Of a stretch of 32,525 nucleotides of DNA, positions 151 through 11,202 are shown in pieces; within the stretch, counting starts at the first letter, position 1, and every line of letters starts with the position of its first letter. The position numbers were made by a program, and so were the translations under genes. Location of the stretch: the NCBI RefSeq assembly GCF_003288815.1, contig NZ_NHYM01000016.1, positions 1 to 32,525 on the forward strand, read 5' to 3'. Below the pieces are notes generated by a model. That model was not told the origin of the DNA. It did no database searches and was given only the letters and a program-made list of their open reading frames with translations. Source of the stretch: Helicobacter sp. 16-1353. GTDB taxonomy: Bacteria; Campylobacterota; Campylobacteria; Campylobacterales; Helicobacteraceae.

Positions 151-996
151 CTAATATTTCCCCACGAATCCTAAAAATTTACTCTCAAAATCGCATTCCA
201 CCACTTCCAAATCTTCATAATTCTCAAATGTGTAAATATAATTAAAATCCTTATATTTCTCGCACTGGGCGAATTTATAGGAATCTAGATTCTGCGTTTT
301 TTCTATCTTGTAGCACTTAAAATGCTCCAAAAAATAGCCCATACTCTCCTTATACACAAGTCCGCCCTTTTGAACGATAATCATTCTATCAATCAACCCC
401 ACCAAATCGCCCATAATGTGGGAAGTTAGGATAATAGTCTTTCTAATATTTTTCTGCGAATCCCAAATATAATTCTTAAGATAATCCACAAAAAGCCTCC
501 TATAGCCCACATCAAGCCCCATTGAGTAGTCATCAAGGATTAAAAGCCTCGCATCTTGGGCGAAAACAAGCCCCAAAACCACTTGCGACTTCTGCCCAAA
601 TGAAAGAGTGCCGAGCTTTTGCGTGTATTTTAAGCCCATCAAATCGACTAGCTCATAGAAATACTCCCTTTTCCACTTGGGGTAAAATGCGGCAAAAAAC
701 CGCTCTATTGTTTGAATATCCATAAAATCATAGGTGATAAAATTCTCAAACAATAGGGCGATATCTCGCTTGGCACTGGGGCTTAGAGTGCTACTATCCT
801 CGCCAAATATCTTGCAAACACCACTTTTTGGCTTAATATATCCCATAAGTATGTTAATAAGCGTGGATTTCCCCACTCCATTCTTGCCTAAGACCCCAAA
901 TACCGAGTATTCCTCGATATTTAGGCTCAAGTTTTCATAGATTTTTTTACTGCCATAATTATGAGAGAGGTTCTCAATCTGTATGATGTTTTGCAT
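151..996 (-). CDS. ABC transporter ATP-binding protein (orphan in this window)
   Basis: This is a nucleotide-binding subunit of an ABC exporter-like system, 281 residues from the ATG at 996. An upstream in-frame start would sit inside the preceding small gene and is not needed. Walker A is GKNGVGKS (37-44), the signature is LSFGQ (131-135), Walker B is LLILD (151-155), and a switch histidine follows in LTSHI. The residue after Walker B is Asp (LDDYSMGLD) where most ABC ATPases have the catalytic Glu, so hydrolysis may be slow or the family distinct. A short C-terminal extension follows the domain. No permease gene is visible; it may lie left of position 1. The start overlaps the end of the Cys-rich gene by 23 bp, which suggests translational coupling. 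The substrate is unknown. Confidence 0.88.
   Translation of the reverse strand: MQNIIQIENLSHNYGSKKIYENLSLNIEEYSVFGVLGKNGVGKSTLINILMGYIKPKSGVCKIFGEDSSTLSPSAKRDIALLFENFITYDFMDIQTIERFFAAFYPKWKREYFYELVDLMGLKYTQKLGTLSFGQKSQVVLGLVFAQDARLLILDDYSMGLDVGYRRLFVDYLKNYIWDSQKNIRKTIILTSHIMGDLVGLIDRMIIVQKGGLVYKESMGYFLEHFKCYKIEKTQNLDSYKFAQCEKYKDFNYIYTFENYEDLEVVECDFESKFLGFVGKY
281..297. repeat. 17-bp word built on the GAATCTAGATTC palindrome, copy A
   Basis: GAATCTAGATTCTGCGT occurs here inside the ABC ATPase gene and identically at 5478-5494 inside feoB. On the coding strand both encode the peptide TQNLDS. The 12-bp palindromic core also appears at 1505-1516 (noncoding) and 5460-5471 (feoB). Confidence 0.8.
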
Positions 997-1114
997 TTTT
1001 GCTCTCACAGCAACTGCCCTCTTTACCACAGCCACAGCCTTTTTTCTTTACTGCTGAATACACCAAGTAGATTCCAGCTAATATTGCCAAACCAAGAACT
1101 ATAAAAATTTCCAT
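974..1114 (-). CDS. FeoB-associated Cys-rich small membrane protein
   Basis: This is a 46-residue protein starting at the ATG at 1114, preceded by AAAGGA at a good distance. A single hydrophobic segment covers residues 3-22 (IFIVLGLAILAGIYLVYSAV). A basic KKK and a cysteine cluster GCGCGKEGSCC (26-36) follow, then a short His-containing tail (KHHTD). This layout matches the FeoB-associated Cys-rich membrane proteins (Pfam FeoB_associated), which usually lie next to feoB and are thought to assist Fe(II) transport. Here feoB is about 2.1 kb away in the same orientation, separated by two metal-related genes and by noncoding DNA. The stop (974-976) lies inside the ABC ATPase gene that begins at 996. 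I am confident that the gene is real and fairly confident of the family. Confidence 0.82.
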   Translation of the reverse strand: MEIFIVLGLAILAGIYLVYSAVKKKGCGCGKEGSCCESKNAKHHTD

Positions 1115-2042: not shown

Positions 2043-2864
2043 CTATTTCATATCCTTTACTTGCACCCAAATCACGGCATCTTGGCTTAGCTCCTTGCCT
2101 TTATACTCCGTGTCGCTTCCCACACCAAGTGCGGCAAATCCCCACCAGCCAGACTTCGGCAACCCAAAGGTAAATTTCCCATTCGCGTCCGCCTTAATCC
2201 CCATAGTTACGAAGCTATCTTGCGGAGCCTTGACATTCGCTTTTTTATTGGTTTTATTATTTTTCACATCAATATCATGGTTTAGGTATTCTACCTCGAT
2301 TTCAGCGAATGGCACGGGCTTTCCATTACTTTTAACTATCCCGCTAAAAGTCCCACCAGTCCAAATCGAATAAGGCTTAGTTAGTGGCACAATCTCAGCC
2401 TTTAGCCCAAGCTCACTATCCCAGTCGCTAGGGGCTCCAGCCACATTCACCACCATTTTTGTAATCTGCTGGATATATGCGTCCTCGTTCGCCTCATAAT
2501 ACGGAGCAGGGGTCAAAACGAATACATAATCCCCCAAGCTTCTTGCCTTATAAGTAGTCTCATAGCCTATCCCAGCGTTATTTGAGCCTTGAAATTTCAT
2601 TTCTTTTAGTGTTTTTACTAGGTCGGTTTTCTTACCTTTTTGGATTACATAAAAATCTACAATCCCAGCTCTACTTTTATCCGCTTGTAAGCCCATATCC
2701 ATCGTGTGTTCGTCCGCAAATGGGTGAGTAAAAATTAGCTTTAGTGGAATCTCAGCCCCCTTATTTAGGGCAGATTCTGGCGTATAAATCATTTGAAAAT
2801 GTGCCAAAAGTGAGCTACTTAACCCCGCTACCAACATTAAACCAACTAAAAATTTCTTTATCAT
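2043..2864 (-). CDS. DUF4198 (NikK/NikM-like) periplasmic metal-associated protein
   Basis: This 273-residue secreted protein starts at 2864 with a strong AAAGGAGG ribosome site. A signal peptide covers residues 1-21 (MIKKFLVGLMLVAGLSSSLL, then Ala). Cleavage after that Ala would expose His22 (HFQMIYTPE) as the mature N-terminus, a feature often linked to metal binding. The following region, with GAEIPLKLIFTHPFADEH, and the beta-rich C-terminal part with NGKPVPFAEIEVEY match the DUF4198 family from memory. That family includes periplasmic partners of nickel/cobalt transporters. The gene is the last of the operon feoA-feoB-small protein-DUF4198, only 12 nt after the preceding gene. The family is fairly secure; whether it handles nickel or iron here is inferred and open. 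Confidence 0.82.
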   Translation of the reverse strand: MIKKFLVGLMLVAGLSSSLLAHFQMIYTPESALNKGAEIPLKLIFTHPFADEHTMDMGLQADKSRAGIVDFYVIQKGKKTDLVKTLKEMKFQGSNNAGIGYETTYKARSLGDYVFVLTPAPYYEANEDAYIQQITKMVVNVAGAPSDWDSELGLKAEIVPLTKPYSIWTGGTFSGIVKSNGKPVPFAEIEVEYLNHDIDVKNNKTNKKANVKAPQDSFVTMGIKADANGKFTFGLPKSGWWGFAALGVGSDTEYKGKELSQDAVIWVQVKDMK

Positions 2865-2876
2865 ATTTTCCTCCTT

Positions 2877-3185
2877 TTATTCTGCAATATCTTTGCTTTT
2901 TACTACGACTTTATGCCCCTCACCAGCGTCCAAATGTGCCTCATATGTGCCATTTGGCTTTTTGAATGTATAGCTACTATCCTCGCCAAATTTCCCGCTA
3001 ATTATGGACTTTCCATTCTGCACAATGGCGAATTTCACGCCATTTGCACTACTTCCATCGCTGAATCCGCCCTCGCAAGTTACCGTCTCATCGCCATTAT
3101 CAAAGCAGTTCATTAACGCCGAATGTGCGAATAAACTAGAACTAAAACCCATTACCAATAATGAAATAAATATTTTTTTTATCAT
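2877..3185 (-). CDS. Small periplasmic protein, NikL-like, in the feo operon
   Basis: This 102-residue protein starts at the ATG at 3185, preceded by AAAGGAGA. The frame is open further upstream into feoB, but only this start has both a ribosome site and a signal peptide (residues 1-20, ending SSSLFA). The predicted mature protein begins with His21 (HSALMN) and has two cysteines (27 and 37) that could pair. The pattern of a His N-terminus, a short beta-rich body with SGKFGEDSSYTFKKPNG and a late AGEGHKV motif resembles NikL-type accessory proteins of nickel ECF transporters. That comparison is from memory and unverified. It sits between feoB (53 nt upstream) and the DUF4198 gene, whose ribosome site abuts its stop. 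I infer a role in periplasmic metal delivery. Confidence 0.75.
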   Translation of the reverse strand: MIKKIFISLLVMGFSSSLFAHSALMNCFDNGDETVTCEGGFSDGSSANGVKFAIVQNGKSIISGKFGEDSSYTFKKPNGTYEAHLDAGEGHKVVVKSKDIAE

Positions 3186-3238
3186 TTTTTCTCCTTTAAA
3201 ATTATTTATAAATCCTATATCAAGTCGCCAGAATTGAA

Positions 3239-6142
3239 TTATTTTCCCTCCTTTGATTGATATACAGCGGATAGTCCACCGCTCCAATTTTTCCGCTTCT
3301 CAGGGATAAATCCAAGTATTAAAGCAATGATTAGCACGATTGCATAATAAAAACTCATCGCCTCTAAACCGCCCAAATTTAGGGCATTTGAGATGGTGAA
3401 AAATAGTGAAGAGACGATTAATGCGAGTGAAAATGGAAAAAGCAGTGCAAAAATCATCCACAACCAGCTATTTGTCTGCATTTTTAAAACTATCATTGTG
3501 GCTATGCAAGGGGGCGTAAGTAGCATAAAGATTATGATACTTGCGGCGTGCAAAGGCGTGTAGCCACTATTTTGTGCCATTGCCTCCTCTGGTCTAAGCT
3601 GTGCTTGCGAAGCAGATAAATCTGCATTAGATTCTGCAGAATCTGTGTTTAGATTCGCATTAGATTCTAGATTCACACTAGATTCCGCGGTTTTTGTAAT
3701 AGATTTCGCATTCGTGGAATCCACATTTAGATTCGCAGATTCTGCATTAGATTCCACATTTGGATTCGCCCCAGATTCCACATTTTCTATAATTGGACTT
3801 TTTCCCTGCTCGTAGATACTTCCTAAGGTTGCCACGGCAGATTCCCGTGCGGCAAATGAGCTTAAGAACGCCACATTTATTTTCCAATCAAATCCAGCAA
3901 ATTTTGAAATCGGCTCTAACGCCCTCCCAGCCATACCTAAAAGGGAGTTTTCTATCTTGTCGTTTTTCTGCTCTCGCAAGATTTTATTTTTACCATTTGA
4001 TAGTTTTCGAAGCTCTGTATTTATAACCCTAGCGTCTTTATCGCCCTTTGGCACTTTGATAAATTTATAGATTTCCGGGTATTTTTTTTCAAAAACTTCA
4101 TCGACATCGCTTCCCCCAGTCATTTTTTTGCCTCGATAGTTCTCATAGACATTTAACGCATTTGCGACTTTTTCCCTAGAATCCAGCATTTCATAGTATT
4201 TAGTTTTTTTCACTTTTTTATCAAAAACAGCCAGAATCTTCGCTTCTTCGCCGTTATAATAATCTTGCTTCTCCTTGCTTAATCCGGGGAATTGCAACAT
4301 CGCAAAAAGTATGATAGCCACGGCTAGAACGATAGTGCAGACCTTTTTGATATACACCCACACGCGCTCCAACGCCCTTAAAATTACACCCTTAAAAGTC
4401 GGCAAATGATATGGCGGAAGCTCCATCACAAATGGTGCCGTTTGCCTTGTTTGAAGTATGGTGGAAGTTAGAATTTTTGCGATAATTAGGGCAGCAAAAA
4501 TAGTAATCGTGGAGATGTAAAATAGCATTAAACTCATATGAGCTGCAAAAAACGCCCCAACTAAAAGCGTGTAGAACGGCACTTTTGCAAGGCAGTTCAT
4601 AAGTGGCACAGTTAGAATCGTCGCCATTCTAGCCCTATCATCGGCGATTCCTTTCGTAGACATTATCCCCGGAACCGCACAGCCCCCGACGAACGCCCCT
4701 CCAAGCACAAGTGGCAGAGTGCTCTGCCCATGAAGCCCAAATTTCCTAAACACCCTATCTAAAATAAACGCCATTCTAGGCATATAGCCAATATCCTCTA
4801 AAATCGCAATGAGCGAGAAAAGTATCAAAAATATTGGGATATAGTTTAGGAGTGCATTCACGGAGTTTATAAGCCAAATGGCTAGGTCGGTTGTCATCGG
4901 CACATGCGTAATATCCCCAGCTGGGCTTATATCAATTACGAAATTTTTTAGCGTAGCTAGAATAGGCCAAGTATAATTCGTAAGCTTATAGCCGCCCACA
5001 ATCGAGGCTTCATAAATGATAAAAATAATCAGCAGCAAAATAGGGAAGCTAAGCCATCGATTTAGCACGAATCTATCGACCTTATCAGTTAATGTTTTCT
5101 GCCCCTTTTTGGTCTCTTTAATACACTTGTGGTAGATGATATCAGCACTATCGTAGCGGATATTTGCCAAAAAATGCTCGATATCTTTGTCGAATTTATT
5201 ATGAAAATCTGCTCTTAAATTTTCTACTTCATCACTAATATTTTGTGTGGATTCCGTTATTTTTTCCGGAGCGTTATTCGTCTTGTTTTCCGGCGCGTTT
5301 AAAGTCGCAGATTTCGCTACAGATTCTGCCGGAGATTCCGTCGCACTCGCAGACTTCGCCACAGATTCCGCCGGAGATTCCGCCGGAGATTCCGCCATAT
5401 TTTGCAAAATATTAATGATAAAGCTATCGCCCTCTAGGGCTTTTATCGCAAGCCACCTAGAATCTAGATTCTTCCTCGAATCTAGATTCTGCGTCTTGGC
5501 TCTTATTTTCCCCTCAAGCTGAGCGATGTAGGATTCTAGCTCATCGTAATTTATGCGAAAATTCGTATATGTTAGATTCTTGCTATTGATAATTGCCTCT
5601 AAAATCTCTTCTTTTCCCACGCCTTTTGCGGCACTTGCCTCGATAACTGGGCAGTTTAGAAGCCCCGCGATTTTAGCAGTATCAATTTTTATGCCTCGAT
5701 TTTTCGCCACATCACACATATTTAGCACCACAATTACGGGCTTTCCAATCTCTAGGAGCTGGAAAGTTAGGTAGAGATTCCGCTTGATATTTGAAGCATC
5801 GATGATGTTTAAAATAATGTCCGGATTCTCATTTATGATAAATTCCTTGGCGACCTTTTCTTCCAGTGAATACGAGCTAAACGAGTATGTGCCGGGCAAA
5901 TCGACCACTTCAATATCGTTATTTTTATAGCTAAAATGCCCTGATTTTTTATCCACCGTTACGCCCGGATAATTAGCGATATGCTGCCTAATCCCGCTTA
6001 TCATATTAAAAACCGTGGATTTACCGCAGTTTGGCTGACCTGCTAGGGCGACTTTTATCTTGCTCTTATGCAATGAAGTATTTTCTATTTTATTAGAATC
6101 TATTATTTGATTGGAGTCGTCTTGATTTTTTTCATCACTCAT
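3239..6142 (-). CDS. feoB: Ferrous iron transporter FeoB with low-complexity insertions
   Basis: FeoB moves Fe(II) across the inner membrane, using a cytosolic G domain. The G domain shows G1 GQPNCGKS (35-42), G2 Thr62 in YPGVTVD, G3 DLPG (81-84), G4 NMCD (141-144) and G5 SAAKG (170-174). Multiple membrane segments and two Gate regions follow, with the typical GGCAVPGIM and TPPCIATM motifs. At 967 residues it is far longer than the H. pylori protein as I remember it. Part of the excess is two Ser/Glu/Asp/Asn-rich stretches, residues about 250-300 (between G domain and membrane part) and about 787-845 (a loop before the last Gate). Both are encoded by GAATCT/GATTCC words. The start overlaps the feoA stop in an ATGA arrangement. 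Confidence 0.96.
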   Translation of the reverse strand: MSDEKNQDDSNQIIDSNKIENTSLHKSKIKVALAGQPNCGKSTVFNMISGIRQHIANYPGVTVDKKSGHFSYKNNDIEVVDLPGTYSFSSYSLEEKVAKEFIINENPDIILNIIDASNIKRNLYLTFQLLEIGKPVIVVLNMCDVAKNRGIKIDTAKIAGLLNCPVIEASAAKGVGKEEILEAIINSKNLTYTNFRINYDELESYIAQLEGKIRAKTQNLDSRKNLDSRWLAIKALEGDSFIINILQNMAESPAESPAESVAKSASATESPAESVAKSATLNAPENKTNNAPEKITESTQNISDEVENLRADFHNKFDKDIEHFLANIRYDSADIIYHKCIKETKKGQKTLTDKVDRFVLNRWLSFPILLLIIFIIYEASIVGGYKLTNYTWPILATLKNFVIDISPAGDITHVPMTTDLAIWLINSVNALLNYIPIFLILFSLIAILEDIGYMPRMAFILDRVFRKFGLHGQSTLPLVLGGAFVGGCAVPGIMSTKGIADDRARMATILTVPLMNCLAKVPFYTLLVGAFFAAHMSLMLFYISTITIFAALIIAKILTSTILQTRQTAPFVMELPPYHLPTFKGVILRALERVWVYIKKVCTIVLAVAIILFAMLQFPGLSKEKQDYYNGEEAKILAVFDKKVKKTKYYEMLDSREKVANALNVYENYRGKKMTGGSDVDEVFEKKYPEIYKFIKVPKGDKDARVINTELRKLSNGKNKILREQKNDKIENSLLGMAGRALEPISKFAGFDWKINVAFLSSFAARESAVATLGSIYEQGKSPIIENVESGANPNVESNAESANLNVDSTNAKSITKTAESSVNLESNANLNTDSAESNADLSASQAQLRPEEAMAQNSGYTPLHAASIIIFMLLTPPCIATMIVLKMQTNSWLWMIFALLFPFSLALIVSSLFFTISNALNLGGLEAMSFYYAIVLIIALILGFIPEKRKNWSGGLSAVYQSKEGK
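3608..3784. repeat. GAATCT/GATTCC expansion in feoB, loop before the last Gate
   Basis: Repeated GATTC/GAATC words encode residues about 787-845, rich in ES, DS and NLN. The reading frame stays open throughout. The stretch lies between conserved FeoB membrane blocks, so it looks like an insertion in a loop. Confidence 0.7.
5243..5395. repeat. GATTCCGCC expansion in feoB, after the G domain
   Basis: Near-tandem GATTCCGCCGGA units at the right end (5362-5395) pass into looser copies. They encode the AESPAESPAES type peptide at residues about 250-300. Confidence 0.75.
5478..5494. repeat. 17-bp word built on the GAATCTAGATTC palindrome, copy B
   Basis: This is identical to 281-297 in the ABC ATPase gene. 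The 12-bp palindrome also occurs 18 bp to the left at 5460-5471. Together the two copies encode the repeated NLDSRKNLDSR in FeoB. Confidence 0.8.
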
Positions 6143-6363
6143 AATTTACTAACCTCAATAAGTGCCGCTTCGCTTTTTCTAAGGCTGATTAGATAATTAT
6201 GTATTTTTAGCTCTAATGGGTCGCTTAGTGGAGCTTCTCGAACCACCTCAACTACAGCTCCACTCACAAAACCCATATCAAGTAATTTATAAAAAAGTTT
6301 ATTTTGGGCATTTATCTTTTCTATTTTATATAAATTGCCATTTTTTACTTCACTCAAAATCAT
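6139..6363 (-). CDS. feoA: Ferrous iron transport protein FeoA
   Basis: FeoA is a small cytosolic SH3-like partner of FeoB. From the ATG at 6363 it has 74 residues, the usual size. The frame runs further upstream to 6423, but AAAGG lies just upstream of 6363 and the family begins with this MILSEVKNG-like start. The characteristic core LLDMGFVSGAVVEVVREAPLSD and the end IHNYLISLRKSEAALIEV are visible. The stop overlaps the feoB start by 4 bp, so the two are translated together. It is the first gene of the minus-strand feo operon; its promoter lies in the Fur-box-containing spacer shared with the TonB receptor gene. Confidence 0.93.
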   Translation of the reverse strand: MILSEVKNGNLYKIEKINAQNKLFYKLLDMGFVSGAVVEVVREAPLSDPLELKIHNYLISLRKSEAALIEVSKL

Positions 6364-6378
6364 ATTCTGCCTTTCTAA

Positions 6379-6397
6379 AATGATAATTTTTATTATT
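6379..6397. promoter_or_regulatory. Candidate Fur box near feoA start
   Basis: AATGATAATTTTTATTATT resembles the Fur operator in its ATGATAAT half followed by an A/T-rich mirror. It lies 16 bp before the feoA start codon. AT-rich spacers give chance matches, so confidence is modest. Confidence 0.4.
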
Positions 6398-6408
6398 TGA
6401 TAAATATT

Positions 6409-6428
6409 AATAAGCATTATCATTATTA
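6409..6428. promoter_or_regulatory. Candidate Fur box in the feoA/TonB-receptor spacer
   Basis: On the minus strand this reads TAATAATGATAATGCTTATT, close to the classical GATAATGATAATCATTATC operator. It is the best match in the spacer and could repress feoA and perhaps the divergent receptor gene when iron is plentiful. Confidence 0.55.
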
Positions 6429-6592: not shown

Positions 6593-8920
6593 ATGAAGTA
6601 TAAAAATTTGGCTTTAATATTGGTGTTTATATCGGCATTGCAAGGCTTGGAATCCCAAGATTCTATAGAATCTAACAAATCTATAGAATCTGCGGAATCT
6701 CAAGAATCTATGGAATCTATGGAATCTAAAAACTCCCAAGATTCTACGGATTCCACGAATTCGCAAGATTCTAAAAGTGCTTCAAGTGGCTTAAAACAAG
6801 CCCAAATAGAAATCTCCATAACAGATAGCTTTATGAAATCTCAAGTCGATGATTTAAACCGCAATGTTTATATTATCGATAAGGATTTTATCGCTGATAA
6901 GGGCTTTAGAAATACTACCGAGATTTTTGATTATGTGCCGTTTGTATCGAAAAATAATGTCGGCTTGGGGAGCAATTTAGACATTCGAGGGCAAGGGCAG
7001 AAAAGTAACATCGCAACGCAGATTCTACTAAATGACACGAATCTAAATATGCTAGATTCTTCGCACGGCACGACTCCGCTGGATTCCATTGCGGTGGGCG
7101 ATATTGAACGAATTGAGATATTGCCCGGTGGCGGAGCGGTAATGTATGGGAATGGCACACGAGGGGGCGTGGTAAATATCATCACAAAGAAAAAATATGA
7201 GACTTTCACCCCAAGTGCTGGAGTAAGCTACACAGGCACACCCACTGATAAAAGTGGCTTGTTCGGCTCGAAGCTAAATGCAAATGCTAGAGTTGCTGGG
7301 AAAATGCTAGATTCGCTGTATTATTCCCTAAGTGGGGCGTATGGCTATGAAAAAGGCTATAGAGAGGGCGATGAGCGAAATGCTTTCAATCTAGGCGGAA
7401 ATCTCACCTATGATATAAACGCAAATAATTCGCTTTTTATCGATGTGAGTGGCTTTCATGGGATTACGGATACTTCGCCAAACTTGCTATTTTCTATCGG
7501 CACGACTTTTGGAAGTGCTACTGGATTTGGCAGTGATAATAATGCCCCAAGTAAATCCAAACGCTATGACAAAGGGCAGGGCGATATAAAAATGAAGCAA
7601 AATAGGGCAGATGTGGCAATCGGCTATGAGGGGCAATTCGGCGATAATCACAGCTTTCAAGCAAAGCTAGTCCATCACTATTTGCAAAATCGATATTTGC
7701 ATTATGTGGCTGGTGCGTGGTATGCAAATAGAGCGAGTTATATGTATGTGCCTAATTTCTCCCAGAGTGGGTCGTATTTTGAAGATATGAAATATGGTTT
7801 GCAACTTCGATATGATTGGCAGCATGGGAGTGGCACATTAATTGTAGGGTTTGATTCGATTTATAATATTGGGGAGCGGTTTTTAAATCTTCATTATGAT
7901 GGGCTTATGAATACGGTAAGTGCGACAATGGCAATGGACCACGATATACAAACGCCAGTAGATGCCAATAAATGGACAAATTCACTTTATCTAATCGAAA
8001 AATATAATTTCACTCCACGACTTTCCCTAACTGCGGGGGCTAGATATGAGAATGCAAACTACACTGGAGAGCGACGATATTACTCAAATAGGAATACGAT
8101 TATAACTAGCACTTCCAAAAAAATAAAGGATAATATCTCAAACTTTGCCCTAGAAATCGCCCCAAAATACAGCTTTGAAAGTGGCGATTTATACGCGAAA
8201 TACGAGCGTGGCTATCTCTCACCAAATCCGGATATGCTTACCTTTGGGCTAGGAAATGGCGTATACACAGATTCGAATCTAAAAAGCGAGAAATACAATA
8301 CCCTTGAATTTGGTGCAAAAGGCACTATTGGAAATCATGTGTTTTTGTCCGGAGCGATATTTTACACGCTAACGCAAGATGAGATTTATAGCTTTGGCTC
8401 GGCTCATTCGGGGCTAAGTGGCTTTGGATATAGCAATTACGACTTGACTTCACGCGCTGGAATCGAGCTTTATAGCGAACAATATGCATTTAATGAATCC
8501 TTGCGATTTAGCGAGAGTTTCACTTATATAGATGCAAGAATCCTAAAAGGCAAACAGCTCACAAATCTAAGTGGCTCTAGCATAGATATGAAAAATAAGC
8601 TAATCCCATATGTAAGCTCGCTTAAGGCTACTATCGGCATTGAATGGGATATAAATGATATCGTAACGCTTTGGACTCAAAACTCCATAAATGGACCAAT
8701 GCGAGATGCCGCATACAAGCGACTTAAGGCGTATGTGCTAAGCGATTTGGGGATAGACTTGAATCTTGGTAGTTTTAAAACTACGATTGGCGTTAGGAAT
8801 GTCGCAGATACGGCGTATTTCGTGTATTACAACTCAAGCTCAATCGACCCAACAATCGGCAATGCCTATCTTTACGCTCAAGGGCGAAATTATTTTATTG
8901 ATTTTAGATACTCGTATTAG
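6593..8920 (+). CDS. TonB-dependent outer-membrane receptor with Ser/Glu-rich N-terminal tail
   Basis: This 775-residue outer-membrane receptor begins at 6593 after AAAGGGG. The signal peptide is residues 1 to about 20. A tail of ES/DS repeats (about 20-62) precedes the plug domain. Plug motifs are visible: NVYIIDKDFI, LGSNLDIRGQG, and VGDIERIEILPGGGAVMYGNGTR before the GGVVNIITKK end. The rest is beta-barrel sequence, and the protein ends in an aromatic residue (FRYSY), as outer-membrane proteins do. No clear haem-receptor FRAP/NPNL motif is seen, so the ligand is open: a siderophore, haem or nickel chelate are all possible. It diverges from feoAB across a spacer with Fur-box-like sites, which supports iron-responsive expression. 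Confidence 0.92.
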   Translation: MKYKNLALILVFISALQGLESQDSIESNKSIESAESQESMESMESKNSQDSTDSTNSQDSKSASSGLKQAQIEISITDSFMKSQVDDLNRNVYIIDKDFIADKGFRNTTEIFDYVPFVSKNNVGLGSNLDIRGQGQKSNIATQILLNDTNLNMLDSSHGTTPLDSIAVGDIERIEILPGGGAVMYGNGTRGGVVNIITKKKYETFTPSAGVSYTGTPTDKSGLFGSKLNANARVAGKMLDSLYYSLSGAYGYEKGYREGDERNAFNLGGNLTYDINANNSLFIDVSGFHGITDTSPNLLFSIGTTFGSATGFGSDNNAPSKSKRYDKGQGDIKMKQNRADVAIGYEGQFGDNHSFQAKLVHHYLQNRYLHYVAGAWYANRASYMYVPNFSQSGSYFEDMKYGLQLRYDWQHGSGTLIVGFDSIYNIGERFLNLHYDGLMNTVSATMAMDHDIQTPVDANKWTNSLYLIEKYNFTPRLSLTAGARYENANYTGERRYYSNRNTIITSTSKKIKDNISNFALEIAPKYSFESGDLYAKYERGYLSPNPDMLTFGLGNGVYTDSNLKSEKYNTLEFGAKGTIGNHVFLSGAIFYTLTQDEIYSFGSAHSGLSGFGYSNYDLTSRAGIELYSEQYAFNESLRFSESFTYIDARILKGKQLTNLSGSSIDMKNKLIPYVSSLKATIGIEWDINDIVTLWTQNSINGPMRDAAYKRLKAYVLSDLGIDLNLGSFKTTIGVRNVADTAYFVYYNSSSIDPTIGNAYLYAQGRNYFIDFRYSY
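6650..6778. repeat. GAATCT/GATTCT expansion in the TonB receptor gene
   Basis: GAATCT (Glu-Ser) and GATTCT/GATTCC (Asp-Ser) hexamers recur in frame between the signal peptide and the plug, encoding about 43 residues of ES/DS-rich tail. The same words expand feoB and the glycosyltransferase gene. Confidence 0.75.
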
Positions 8921-9043: not shown

Positions 9044-10374
9044 ATGGAGCGAATTAATTTTTTTGTGATTATCCCCATTTATAATGTGGAAAAATACCTT
9101 AAAACCTGCCTAGATTCCGTGCTAAATCAAAGCTATAGGAATTTTAAGGCAATTTTGATAAATGACGGAAGCACGGATAAAAGTGGCGAAATCGCGGAAA
9201 TCTATGCCAAAAAAGATGAGCGATTTATCCTTATCAATCAAGCAAATGGCGGACTATCACTGGCTAGAAATGCGGGGATAGAATATGTGGCTAAAATATT
9301 CAACCAAGCTGGTAATAATATTGCCAATAAATGGGGGGGGGGGAATTAGAAGCTAGAATCTTAGCGGATTCTACGCTAGATTCTAGGGATTCGGTAGATT
9401 CTAAAGATTCTAAATATCTTGCAGATTCCACAGATTCCACGCTTAAATTTGAAAAATCCAAATCGCGAAGAGATTCCGCAATTTCCACAAATTCGCAAGA
9501 TTTGGTAGATTCCCCAAACGCCCACAATTTTATAGATTCCACAGACTCCACAAACGCCATAGATTCCACGCTAAACCCACAAGATTCCTATATCGTTTTT
9601 CTAGATTCCGATGATTATTTGGAGAGCTTTGCATTAGAGCATATTTATAAAATCGTTAGTAAAAATAAGGTCGATTTTGTGGCGTGTAGTAGCTATAATT
9701 GCCATAATGAGAGCATTCCAAATGCCACAAAGTCCAAAACTACGCATATAAATTTGCCAGATATTTACATAAATCGCCCCATTAAAACACTTAGTATTTT
9801 GCGTGATTTCCCCACATTTAAGCCCCAAAATATGGCGTGGCTATATACGCATAATGTGGAGTTTCTGCGTTCCCATAATCTTAGATTTACGCCCAAAGTC
9901 TACCACGAAGATGATTTATTTGGACGATATGCTTTTGCTTTGTCTAGCAGAATTTTCATCACCAATACGCCACTTTATAACTACCGCATAAACCGCCCAA
10001 ATTCCATAATGAATACGCACTCACTGACAAGAAAAAAGCACTCACTAAATAGCTATTTTCTAATTATAAATCGCTTTTTAGATTTGGCGGATTTGCTTAA
10101 ATGTGTGAATTGCAAAAGTGATGAGATTTGCAATGAGTGCGATTTAAGAAAGGGCTTTTTAATCTATTCTGCCCGTGAATTTATCATATATTTTTTAAAG
10201 CTTTTGCAAACTATCGGCTATAAAAATGATTTAGAATTTAGTAAAAATGATATAAAAAAGCTTCTGCCGTATATGGAATCTAGGCGAAGATTCTGCGTTT
10301 ATTTCCCCAGAATCTACGGCTTTCCCAAAATGTTAAAAATGAAATTTAAAAAGATAAATAATAATCATTCTTAA
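9044..10374 (+). CDS. Family 2 glycosyltransferase, phase-variable by a poly-G tract (OFF as read)
   Basis: The N-terminal part has the GT2 fold signature: FFVIIPIYNVEKYL, LINDGSTDKS and NGGLSLARNAGIEYV. Reading stops at a TAG (9347-9349) just after 11 consecutive Gs, giving a 101-residue stub. The rest of the enzyme, including the YIVFLDSDDYLE metal/donor motif and the C-terminal domain, continues in another frame to 10374. Twelve or nine Gs would join the frames into about 443 or 442 residues. This is the classic slipped-strand switch for surface-glycan enzymes. The ATG at 9044 is chosen because AAAAGGGG (9029-9036) is well spaced from it; the GTG at 9038 is too close. An Asp/Ser-rich segment of about 100 codons sits between IEYV and YIVFLDSDD, where other GT2 enzymes have only a few residues. 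A sequencing error in the G tract cannot be excluded. Confidence 0.85.
9333..9343 (+). repeat. Poly-G tract of 11, phase-variation switch
   Basis: Eleven consecutive Gs lie inside the glycosyltransferase coding sequence. The upstream frame ends within two codons of the tract; the downstream frame is recovered with one more G or two fewer. Confidence 0.9.
9354..9588. repeat. GATTCT/GATTCC expansion in the glycosyltransferase gene
   Basis: Dense GATTC words encode a DS-rich peptide (DSTLDSRDSVDSKDSK and similar) directly after the G tract and directly before the DSDD motif. The complementary strand is also open and would encode an ES-rich peptide, a consequence of the motif's symmetry. Confidence 0.8.
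10353..10374. promoter_or_regulatory. Candidate Fur box upstream of hugZ
   Basis: GATAAATAATAATCATTCTTAA overlaps the end of the glycosyltransferase gene, about 70 bp before hugZ. It resembles GATAATGATAATCATTATC, fitting iron repression of haem oxygenase. Confidence 0.42.
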
Positions 10375-10446: not shown

Positions 10447-11202
10447 ATGAGTTATGAAAGCATTATAAAGCATATGAATGACGACCACAAAGACGCACTA
10501 ATAGGCGTTTGCAAGAAGTTTGCAGGAGTTGGAGAGATAAAAGAAATCGCATTAAAAGGCATTGATTTAGAGGGCTTGGATATAGCCTATGATGGGAAAA
10601 ATCTGCGAGTGGAGTTCCCGCAAAAAGCCACAGAAAAGACGCTCAAAAATGTCATTATCGAGCTATGCCAATCCGTGCCAAAAACTTATGATATAGAGGG
10701 CGTAAAAGCCGATATTAAGGCATTTGTAGAATCTTGTGGGTCAGTTTGTATCGCAAGTATCGCAAAAGACGGCAGAGCGATAGCCAGCTACGCCCCGTGT
10801 ATCGCTTATAAGGGCAAGTATTATATTTATATTAGCGAGGTGGCGGAGCATTTTGAGAGCATAAGTGCCAATCCAAAAAATTTAGAAATTATGTTCTTGC
10901 AAGATGAGGCAAAAGCAAAAAGCGTGATTTTGCGAGCGCGGCTTCGATATAGGAGCGAGGCGGAGTTTGTAGAGCGTGGAAGCGAGGAGTTTGAGGGGGC
11001 ATTTGATGAGTTTGAGCGAAAGACTGGTGGCTCTGGCGGGATAAAAACCATTCGTAAAATGAGTGATTTTTACCTTGTCCGCCTTGAGTTTAAATCTGGG
11101 CGATTTGTAAAGGGTTTCGGTCAAGCTTATGATATAAATGGCGAAAATATCACATTTGCCGGAGATAGTGGCAATCCGCACAAAATGCCACATAGGAATT
11201 AA
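10447..11202 (+). CDS. hugZ: HugZ-family haem oxygenase
   Basis: HugZ cleaves haem in the cytosol and releases iron. The 251-residue protein starts at 10447 after AAAAAGGA. The N-terminal MSYESIIKHMNDDHKDAL block is typical of the family; a split-barrel flavin-reductase-like domain follows (ADIKAFVESCGSVCIASIAKDGRAIASYAP). The C-terminal tail GNPHKMPHRN places a histidine at residue 245, the position of the haem-ligand His245 I recall for H. pylori HugZ. The gene lies near feoAB and a TonB receptor gene and has a Fur-box-like site upstream, consistent with iron starvation control. It converges with murI, with only 2 bp between the two stops. Confidence 0.93.
   Translation: MSYESIIKHMNDDHKDALIGVCKKFAGVGEIKEIALKGIDLEGLDIAYDGKNLRVEFPQKATEKTLKNVIIELCQSVPKTYDIEGVKADIKAFVESCGSVCIASIAKDGRAIASYAPCIAYKGKYYIYISEVAEHFESISANPKNLEIMFLQDEAKAKSVILRARLRYRSEAEFVERGSEEFEGAFDEFERKTGGSGGIKTIRKMSDFYLVRLEFKSGRFVKGFGQAYDINGENITFAGDSGNPHKMPHRN

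Follow-up and report, generated by a model that had tools for sequence, protein, structure and literature searches.

NikK and NikL have been described as components of nickel transporters, with some orphan copies of unknown role (PMC2667541, PMC545781), and in IsDUF4198 (structure 9GCB) His1 and His18 are the metal ligands, Ni2+ being preferred with a Kd of 18 nM (PMC12537917). Heme-iron use by Bacteroides fragilis needs both CobN-like proteins and FeoAB (PMC6460266), and the iron of heme is removed by HmuS (PMC12583661). The open-licence literature yielded no report of Feo with NikL-like or DUF4198 partners. To our knowledge, the route of Fe(II) to FeoB in the periplasm, and the existence of any extracytoplasmic Feo partner, are open questions; a conserved pair of exported proteins associated with a single FeoB subtype and with a domain specific to that FeoB is a concrete, testable candidate for such a partner. 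The gene set of Helicobacter sp. 16-1353 described here, with two small exported proteins of metal-binding type and an extra domain in FeoB, suggests an unrecognised version of Feo in which these proteins would pass iron to the channel as periplasmic helpers.

The window (the whole stretch of 32,525 nucleotides that was analysed) carries feoA, feoB, a gene for a NikL-like protein and a gene for a DUF4198 (NikK-like) protein, in this order on the minus strand and as one operon (Table 1). The first two genes overlap by ATGA, 53 nt separate feoB from the NikL-like reading frame and 12 nt separate the latter from the DUF4198 gene; the four-gene operon and the gaps reported in the first-pass annotation are thus matched exactly by coordinates and domain searches. 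The NikL-like frame begins at an ATG with AAAGGAG upstream, the listing of open reading frames giving a longer version from a TTG at 3287. FeoA and FeoB, the latter with G domain, Gate and FeoB_C, all exceed the curated cut-offs for FeoAB; NikM, NikQ and NikO are absent from the operon, and a second, ordinary FeoB is encoded elsewhere in the genome.

Table 1. Coordinates of the feo operon, its neighbours and the sites discussed in the text (positions in the window)
Feature	Position	Strand	Details
ABC ATPase gene	151..1035	-	Pfam ABC_tran 7.7e-19
DUF4198 (NikK-like) exported protein gene	2043..2864	-	273 aa; Pfam PF10670 3.3e-58, 197.7 bits (cut-off 34); AF2 pLDDT 96.4
DUF4198 His53 (mature His32) codon	2706..2708	-	HTMDM motif typical of Feo-linked DUF4198
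DUF4198 His47 (mature His26) codon	2724..2726	-	second invariant His; candidate equivalent of IsDUF4198 His18
DUF4198 His22 codon, predicted mature N-terminal His	2799..2801	-	invariant in 39 aligned proteins
NikL-like exported protein gene	2877..3185	-	102 aa; mature N-terminus HSALMNCFDNGDETVTCEGG; no C-terminal membrane helix
NikL-like His21 codon, predicted mature N-terminal His	3123..3125	-	conserved in 83/83 relatives listed (scored by eye)
feoB, long-insert subtype	3239..6142	-	967 aa; Pfam FeoB_N 3e-64, Gate 7e-34, FeoB_C 1e-14; TIGR00437 476 bits (cut-off 316)
Extra helical FeoB segment, candidate docking domain	3950..4282	-	about 112 aa, residues 621-731; predicted periplasmic
feoA	6139..6363	-	74 aa; first gene of the operon; Pfam FeoA 1.2e-19; ATGA overlap with feoB
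AT-rich Fur-box-like sites	6376..6427		between feoA and divergent TonB receptor; p=0.025 for region
Divergent TonB-dependent receptor gene	6593..8920	+	Pfam TonB_dep_Rec_b-barrel 9.6e-28, Plug 5.7e-15

Several features of the surroundings deserve mention. A gene for a HugZ-family heme oxygenase (10447-11202; TIGR04109 324 bits, cut-off 240) lies near the divergent TonB receptor gene and hints at a wider iron or heme region. Genes for an ABC ATPase and for a DUF4857 permease lie close to the feo operon in about a quarter of the loci compared (21 of 80); next to the ABC ATPase gene of the window, the one minus-strand frame read over the 150 bases to the contig end revealed no open frame for the permease. 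The window is also rich in TAGATTC and its complement (55 occurrences, 6.2 expected) and in GATTC/GAATC (206, 68 expected), in stretches that encode tracts rich in Ser, Asn, Asp and Glu (e.g. 3600-3790, 5255-5400, 6650-6790 and 9331-9610); at one such place the FeoB of the window has 80 residues, against a median of 16 in relatives.

The arrangement is conserved across phyla. A scan covering a single genome for each species found 195 encoded NikL-like relatives, of which 80 were kept; feoB lay within 3.5 kb of the NikL-like gene in 72 of these 80 loci, a DUF4198 or NikK gene within 2.5 kb in 69, and both in 63, proportions biased towards the Feo-linked kind by the Feo-type peptides that seeded the scan (the genome counts given below are less biased) and including eight loci that end at a contig boundary on one side. 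Some loci combine feoB and the NikL-like gene with no DUF4198 gene nearby. The hosts comprise Campylobacter, relatives of Arcobacter, Sulfurospirillum, Sulfurovum and many desulfobacterial genomes, together with a Deferribacterales MAG, Proteus faecis, Oligella urethralis, Ignatzschineria cameli and a Pelistega MAG. The survey for feoB-NikL-DUF4198 adjacency that had been proposed therefore recovers the gene order in several phyla, which refutes the notion that it is peculiar to this genome.

Departures from this order were also observed. In L098 (3815-9196) and L119 (3839-15075) the NikL-like/DUF4198 pair occurs without feoB, directly after a CobN-like gene (Pfam CobN-Mg_chel, E 1e-286), followed in L119 by a TonB receptor gene and accompanied there by a DUF2149 gene. 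NikL-like copies with no adjoining feoB occur in Desulfovibrio MAGs (L122, 7127-8255; L125, 7947-8294), that of L122 beside a NikK-like DUF4198 gene. In L034 (3646-5890, genome G049), the reading frame of the partnered feoB is broken into several pieces, by either a frameshift or a sequencing error, and both exported-protein genes are intact.

The FeoB of the window belongs to a separate clade with a conserved helical segment of about 115 residues, absent from ordinary FeoBs. At this place, between a helix ending in LLQFPG and the motif NSLLGMAGRALEP, the partnered FeoBs (a set counting the second FeoB of L107, which was replaced in the set used for the tree) have 111-125 residues, with a median of 115, whereas the count is 0-78 in 41 of 42 comparison FeoBs, which come from the same phyla and from others. 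The second FeoB of L107 and its relative L164 carry a long linker at the segment position; the single match to the segment profile in the genome holding L164 (G447) falls in another FeoB, so that length alone is not diagnostic. A tree calculated after exclusion of the segment columns separated 38 partnered FeoBs from the 42 others without exception (support 1.0), and an unfinished IQ-TREE tree, which carries no support values, gave the same split. The pore-region motifs differ as well, being NCLAKVP and TPPC in the partnered clade and (S/N)CGA(R/K)LP and YVPC in ordinary FeoBs.

The segment and the exported pair occur together with few exceptions. The segment profile (A5), which the FeoB of the window matches at 138 bits, has matches in 44 of 397 Campylobacteria genomes and, in a second phylum, in 12 of 148; 52 of these 545 genomes contain a strong NikL-like match, every one with the segment, leaving four genomes with the segment alone, none with the gene alone and 489 with neither (Fisher p about 2e-68, a value that ignores shared ancestry). 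The NikL-like gene lies on the same strand and within 1.5 kb in 51 of 57 segment copies; genome G330 has the two on opposite strands, separated by 8 kb. The segment was present in every one of the 35 non-campylobacterial genomes examined, many of which also encode further FeoBs lacking it. Such clean co-occurrence of the pair with a FeoB-specific segment suggests a physical partnership.

AlphaFold2 models the FeoB segment as all-helical, with a pLDDT of about 94 (mean for the whole FeoB model 79.6); alignment of the model to solved structures with VIA-align returned matches to the G domain only. The stretch leading into the last membrane helix ahead of the segment has a net charge of +4.1, the C-terminus one of +2.3 and the loop 452-471 one of +2.7; since the positive-inside rule would make these stretches cytoplasmic, the segment probably lies on the periplasmic face. 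The segment itself is net positive (+7) and not an obvious cation-binding surface.

The small exported protein has a sole match, to the NCBIfam NikL model (NF058648; E 1.1e-10), with 41.8 bits against a curated cut-off of 100; this cut-off is strict for the group, since the nikL gene of the same genome reaches only 53.8 bits. Nik-type NikLs end in a membrane helix, which was not found by hydropathy in 55 Feo-linked NikL-like proteins, whose maximum over 19 residues ranges from -0.07 to 1.11, compared with 1.83-2.92 in six Nik-type NikLs. After predicted cleavage the NikL-like proteins all start with H(S/T), and a core C(F/Y/W)(D/E)(N/E)GDxT(V/I)TCEGGFSDGSS is conserved in nearly all of them; when the PDB sequences were searched with the profile of the NikL-like proteins, the sole match was a short, uninformative one to a collagen adhesin.

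The predicted signal peptides of the two exported proteins end in SSSLFA and SSSLLA, with His as the next residue in each, which confirms the N-terminal His noted at first pass. Among the DUF4198 proteins of these loci, 71 of 72 have it, the lone exception being truncated, and its conservation in both protein families rules out a chance occurrence. Mature His1 and His26 are invariant in 39 aligned DUF4198 proteins, whether Nik-, CobN- or Feo-linked, and the His of the HTMDM motif is present in 67 of 71 Feo-linked proteins and not in the NikK rows of two alignments. In the DUF4198 tree, Feo/CobN-linked and Nik-linked proteins are weakly separated, with a support of 0.62 and one exception (L116).

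The relation to DUF4198 that was to be checked by structure is borne out by the model of the window protein, which shares the fold of Ni-bound IsDUF4198 (9GCB; Z 16.3, residue 1 superposed on residue 1) and of Zcp (Z 18.5, N-terminus on N-terminus). The fold, the N-terminal His and a second conserved His of the 9GCB type are all present in it, and His26 is the likely counterpart of the IsDUF4198 ligand His18.

Regulation and gene context bear on the metal involved. The intergenic region of the window contains candidate Fur sites that agree with GATAATGATAATCATTATC at 15 of 19 positions (6409-6427 and 6403-6421) or 14 of 19 (6376-6394), consistent with Fur control of the operon. By sequence match, Fur-like sites occur in 24 of 67 regions upstream of the relatives' operons at p<=0.05 and in 17 at p<=0.01, the same test giving none in the remaining 43 of 67; two NikR patterns were found in one and none of the 67 regions, and Zur and scrambled Fur patterns in one each. 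Control by NikR or Zur was dismissed, since these sites are not enriched in the 67 regions. The genome encodes, on another contig, a separate nikK-M-L-Q operon with its own NikK and NikL. This operon, the enrichment of Fur-like rather than NikR sites and the occurrence of the pair beside CobN-like and TonB-receptor genes, whose relatives are implicated in drawing iron from heme, favour iron over nickel as the probable metal of the partnered Feo system, although the characterised DUF4198 relatives, which prefer Ni2+ (IsDUF4198) or have structures with bound Zn, Cu and Co (Zcp), count against iron.

Taken together, a Fur-regulated variant of Feo can be proposed, in which FeoB would have an additional helical domain, predicted to face the periplasm, the soluble NikL-like and NikK-like DUF4198 proteins would bind Fe(II) through the free N-terminal His and further conserved side chains, and both would pass the ion to FeoB at the extra domain. 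We assign a probability of roughly 0.6 to this reading, that is, capture of Fe(II) by two exported proteins with an N-terminal His and hand-over at the extra domain of FeoB. The operon and its spread over several phyla, the FeoB subtype, the joint occurrence of segment and pair, the conserved His residues and the DUF4198 fold are observed in the data; iron as the metal, the periplasmic location of the segment, docking and hand-over are what we infer from them. Of the two possibilities raised in the first-pass annotation, the composite of Feo with dedicated periplasmic chaperones is strongly supported by the conserved operon, the co-occurring FeoB segment and the match of the DUF4198 fold to an N-terminal-His metal site, the delivery to FeoB and the identity of the metal carried being putative; the other, that FeoB handles some ion besides Fe(II), is made less likely by the enrichment of Fur-like but not NikR or Zur sites, the genome's own nikKMLQ genes and the CobN-like/TonB context.

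In its fullest form, this other possibility holds that the FeoB subtype imports Ni, Co, Mn or Zn, which the NikK/NikL-like pair would supply as in NikKMLQO. The best binding of Ni2+ by DUF4198 relatives (PMC12537917), the HMM match of the small protein to NikL and the pore motifs of the clade, unlike the ordinary ones, would fit such an import, which nevertheless appears rather unlikely given that FeoA is kept in the operon, that nickel has a dedicated operon with its own NikK and NikL, that the upstream sites resemble those of Fur and that the pair also accompanies CobN-like and TonB-receptor genes.

N-terminal-His sites generally prefer Cu and Ni to Fe, following the Irving-Williams series. 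The pair might accordingly form a protective buffer at the periplasmic mouth of FeoB, binding stray copper or excess metal and barring the wrong ion with no delivery of iron, as the binding of Zn, Cu and Co by relatives would also allow; the close association with a single FeoB subtype and its additional segment, and the apparent control of the Fur type instead of a metal-stress type, suit uptake better and make this quite unlikely. Very improbable is a merely shared operon and Fur control, with the exported proteins serving another iron step (iron released from heme or brought in by a TonB receptor) and never contacting FeoB, an idea drawn from the pairs without feoB beside CobN-like genes (L098, L119) and from the divergent TonB receptor and HugZ-type heme oxygenase genes of the window, but at odds with the clean co-occurrence of the pair with the extra segment.

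Whether capture and hand-over of Fe(II) define a multi-phylum class of Feo, with a periplasmic receiver domain in FeoB and two dedicated N-terminal-His metallochaperones, has in our judgement about an even chance of being true. If so, Feo would possess, as ABC importers do, an arm that binds the substrate, and Fe(II) might be selected or concentrated in the periplasm. The Feo-linked pair could account for some of the orphan NikK and NikL genes left unplaced by an earlier survey (PMC2667541), and its linkage to Feo is a caution against naming such NikK/NikL-like genes components of nickel uptake.

In comparison with the known systems, the HmuS/BtuS systems for heme iron, which involve CobN-like proteins, are connected to this locus by the occurrence of the same exported pair beside CobN-like genes in L098 and L119 (candidate HmuS relatives), whereas a CobN-like gene is missing from the operon of the window. 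The Anglerases (Ang-1/Ang-2 fused to HupE/UreJ permeases; PMC12537917) share the idea of an N-terminal-His domain that captures metal for a permease, but the proteins and the permease are different, and the window encodes separate exported proteins and FeoB. IsDUF4198 (9GCB) and Zcp (9MHI-9MHO) have the fold of the window DUF4198 protein over nearly its whole length, and the N-terminal His predicted for the latter is known in IsDUF4198; nevertheless, identity is 16-18%, the structures were solved with Ni or with Zn, Cu and Co, and they are not tied to Feo in the source paper. The nickel ECF transporter NikKMLQO has homologous DUF4198 and NikL-type exported proteins, with the N-terminal His and the second invariant DUF4198 His in common, and differs in that its NikL carries a C-terminal membrane helix and its DUF4198 protein lacks the extra His of the HTMDM motif, the NikL-like protein of the window moreover falling below the NCBIfam cut-off. 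Finally, FeoAB shares with the window FeoA and a FeoB with G domain, Gate and FeoB_C, and its control by Fur may have a counterpart here in the Fur-like sites; the locus departs from it in the helical segment of about 115 residues, in the distinct clade to which its FeoB belongs and in the two exported partners encoded downstream.
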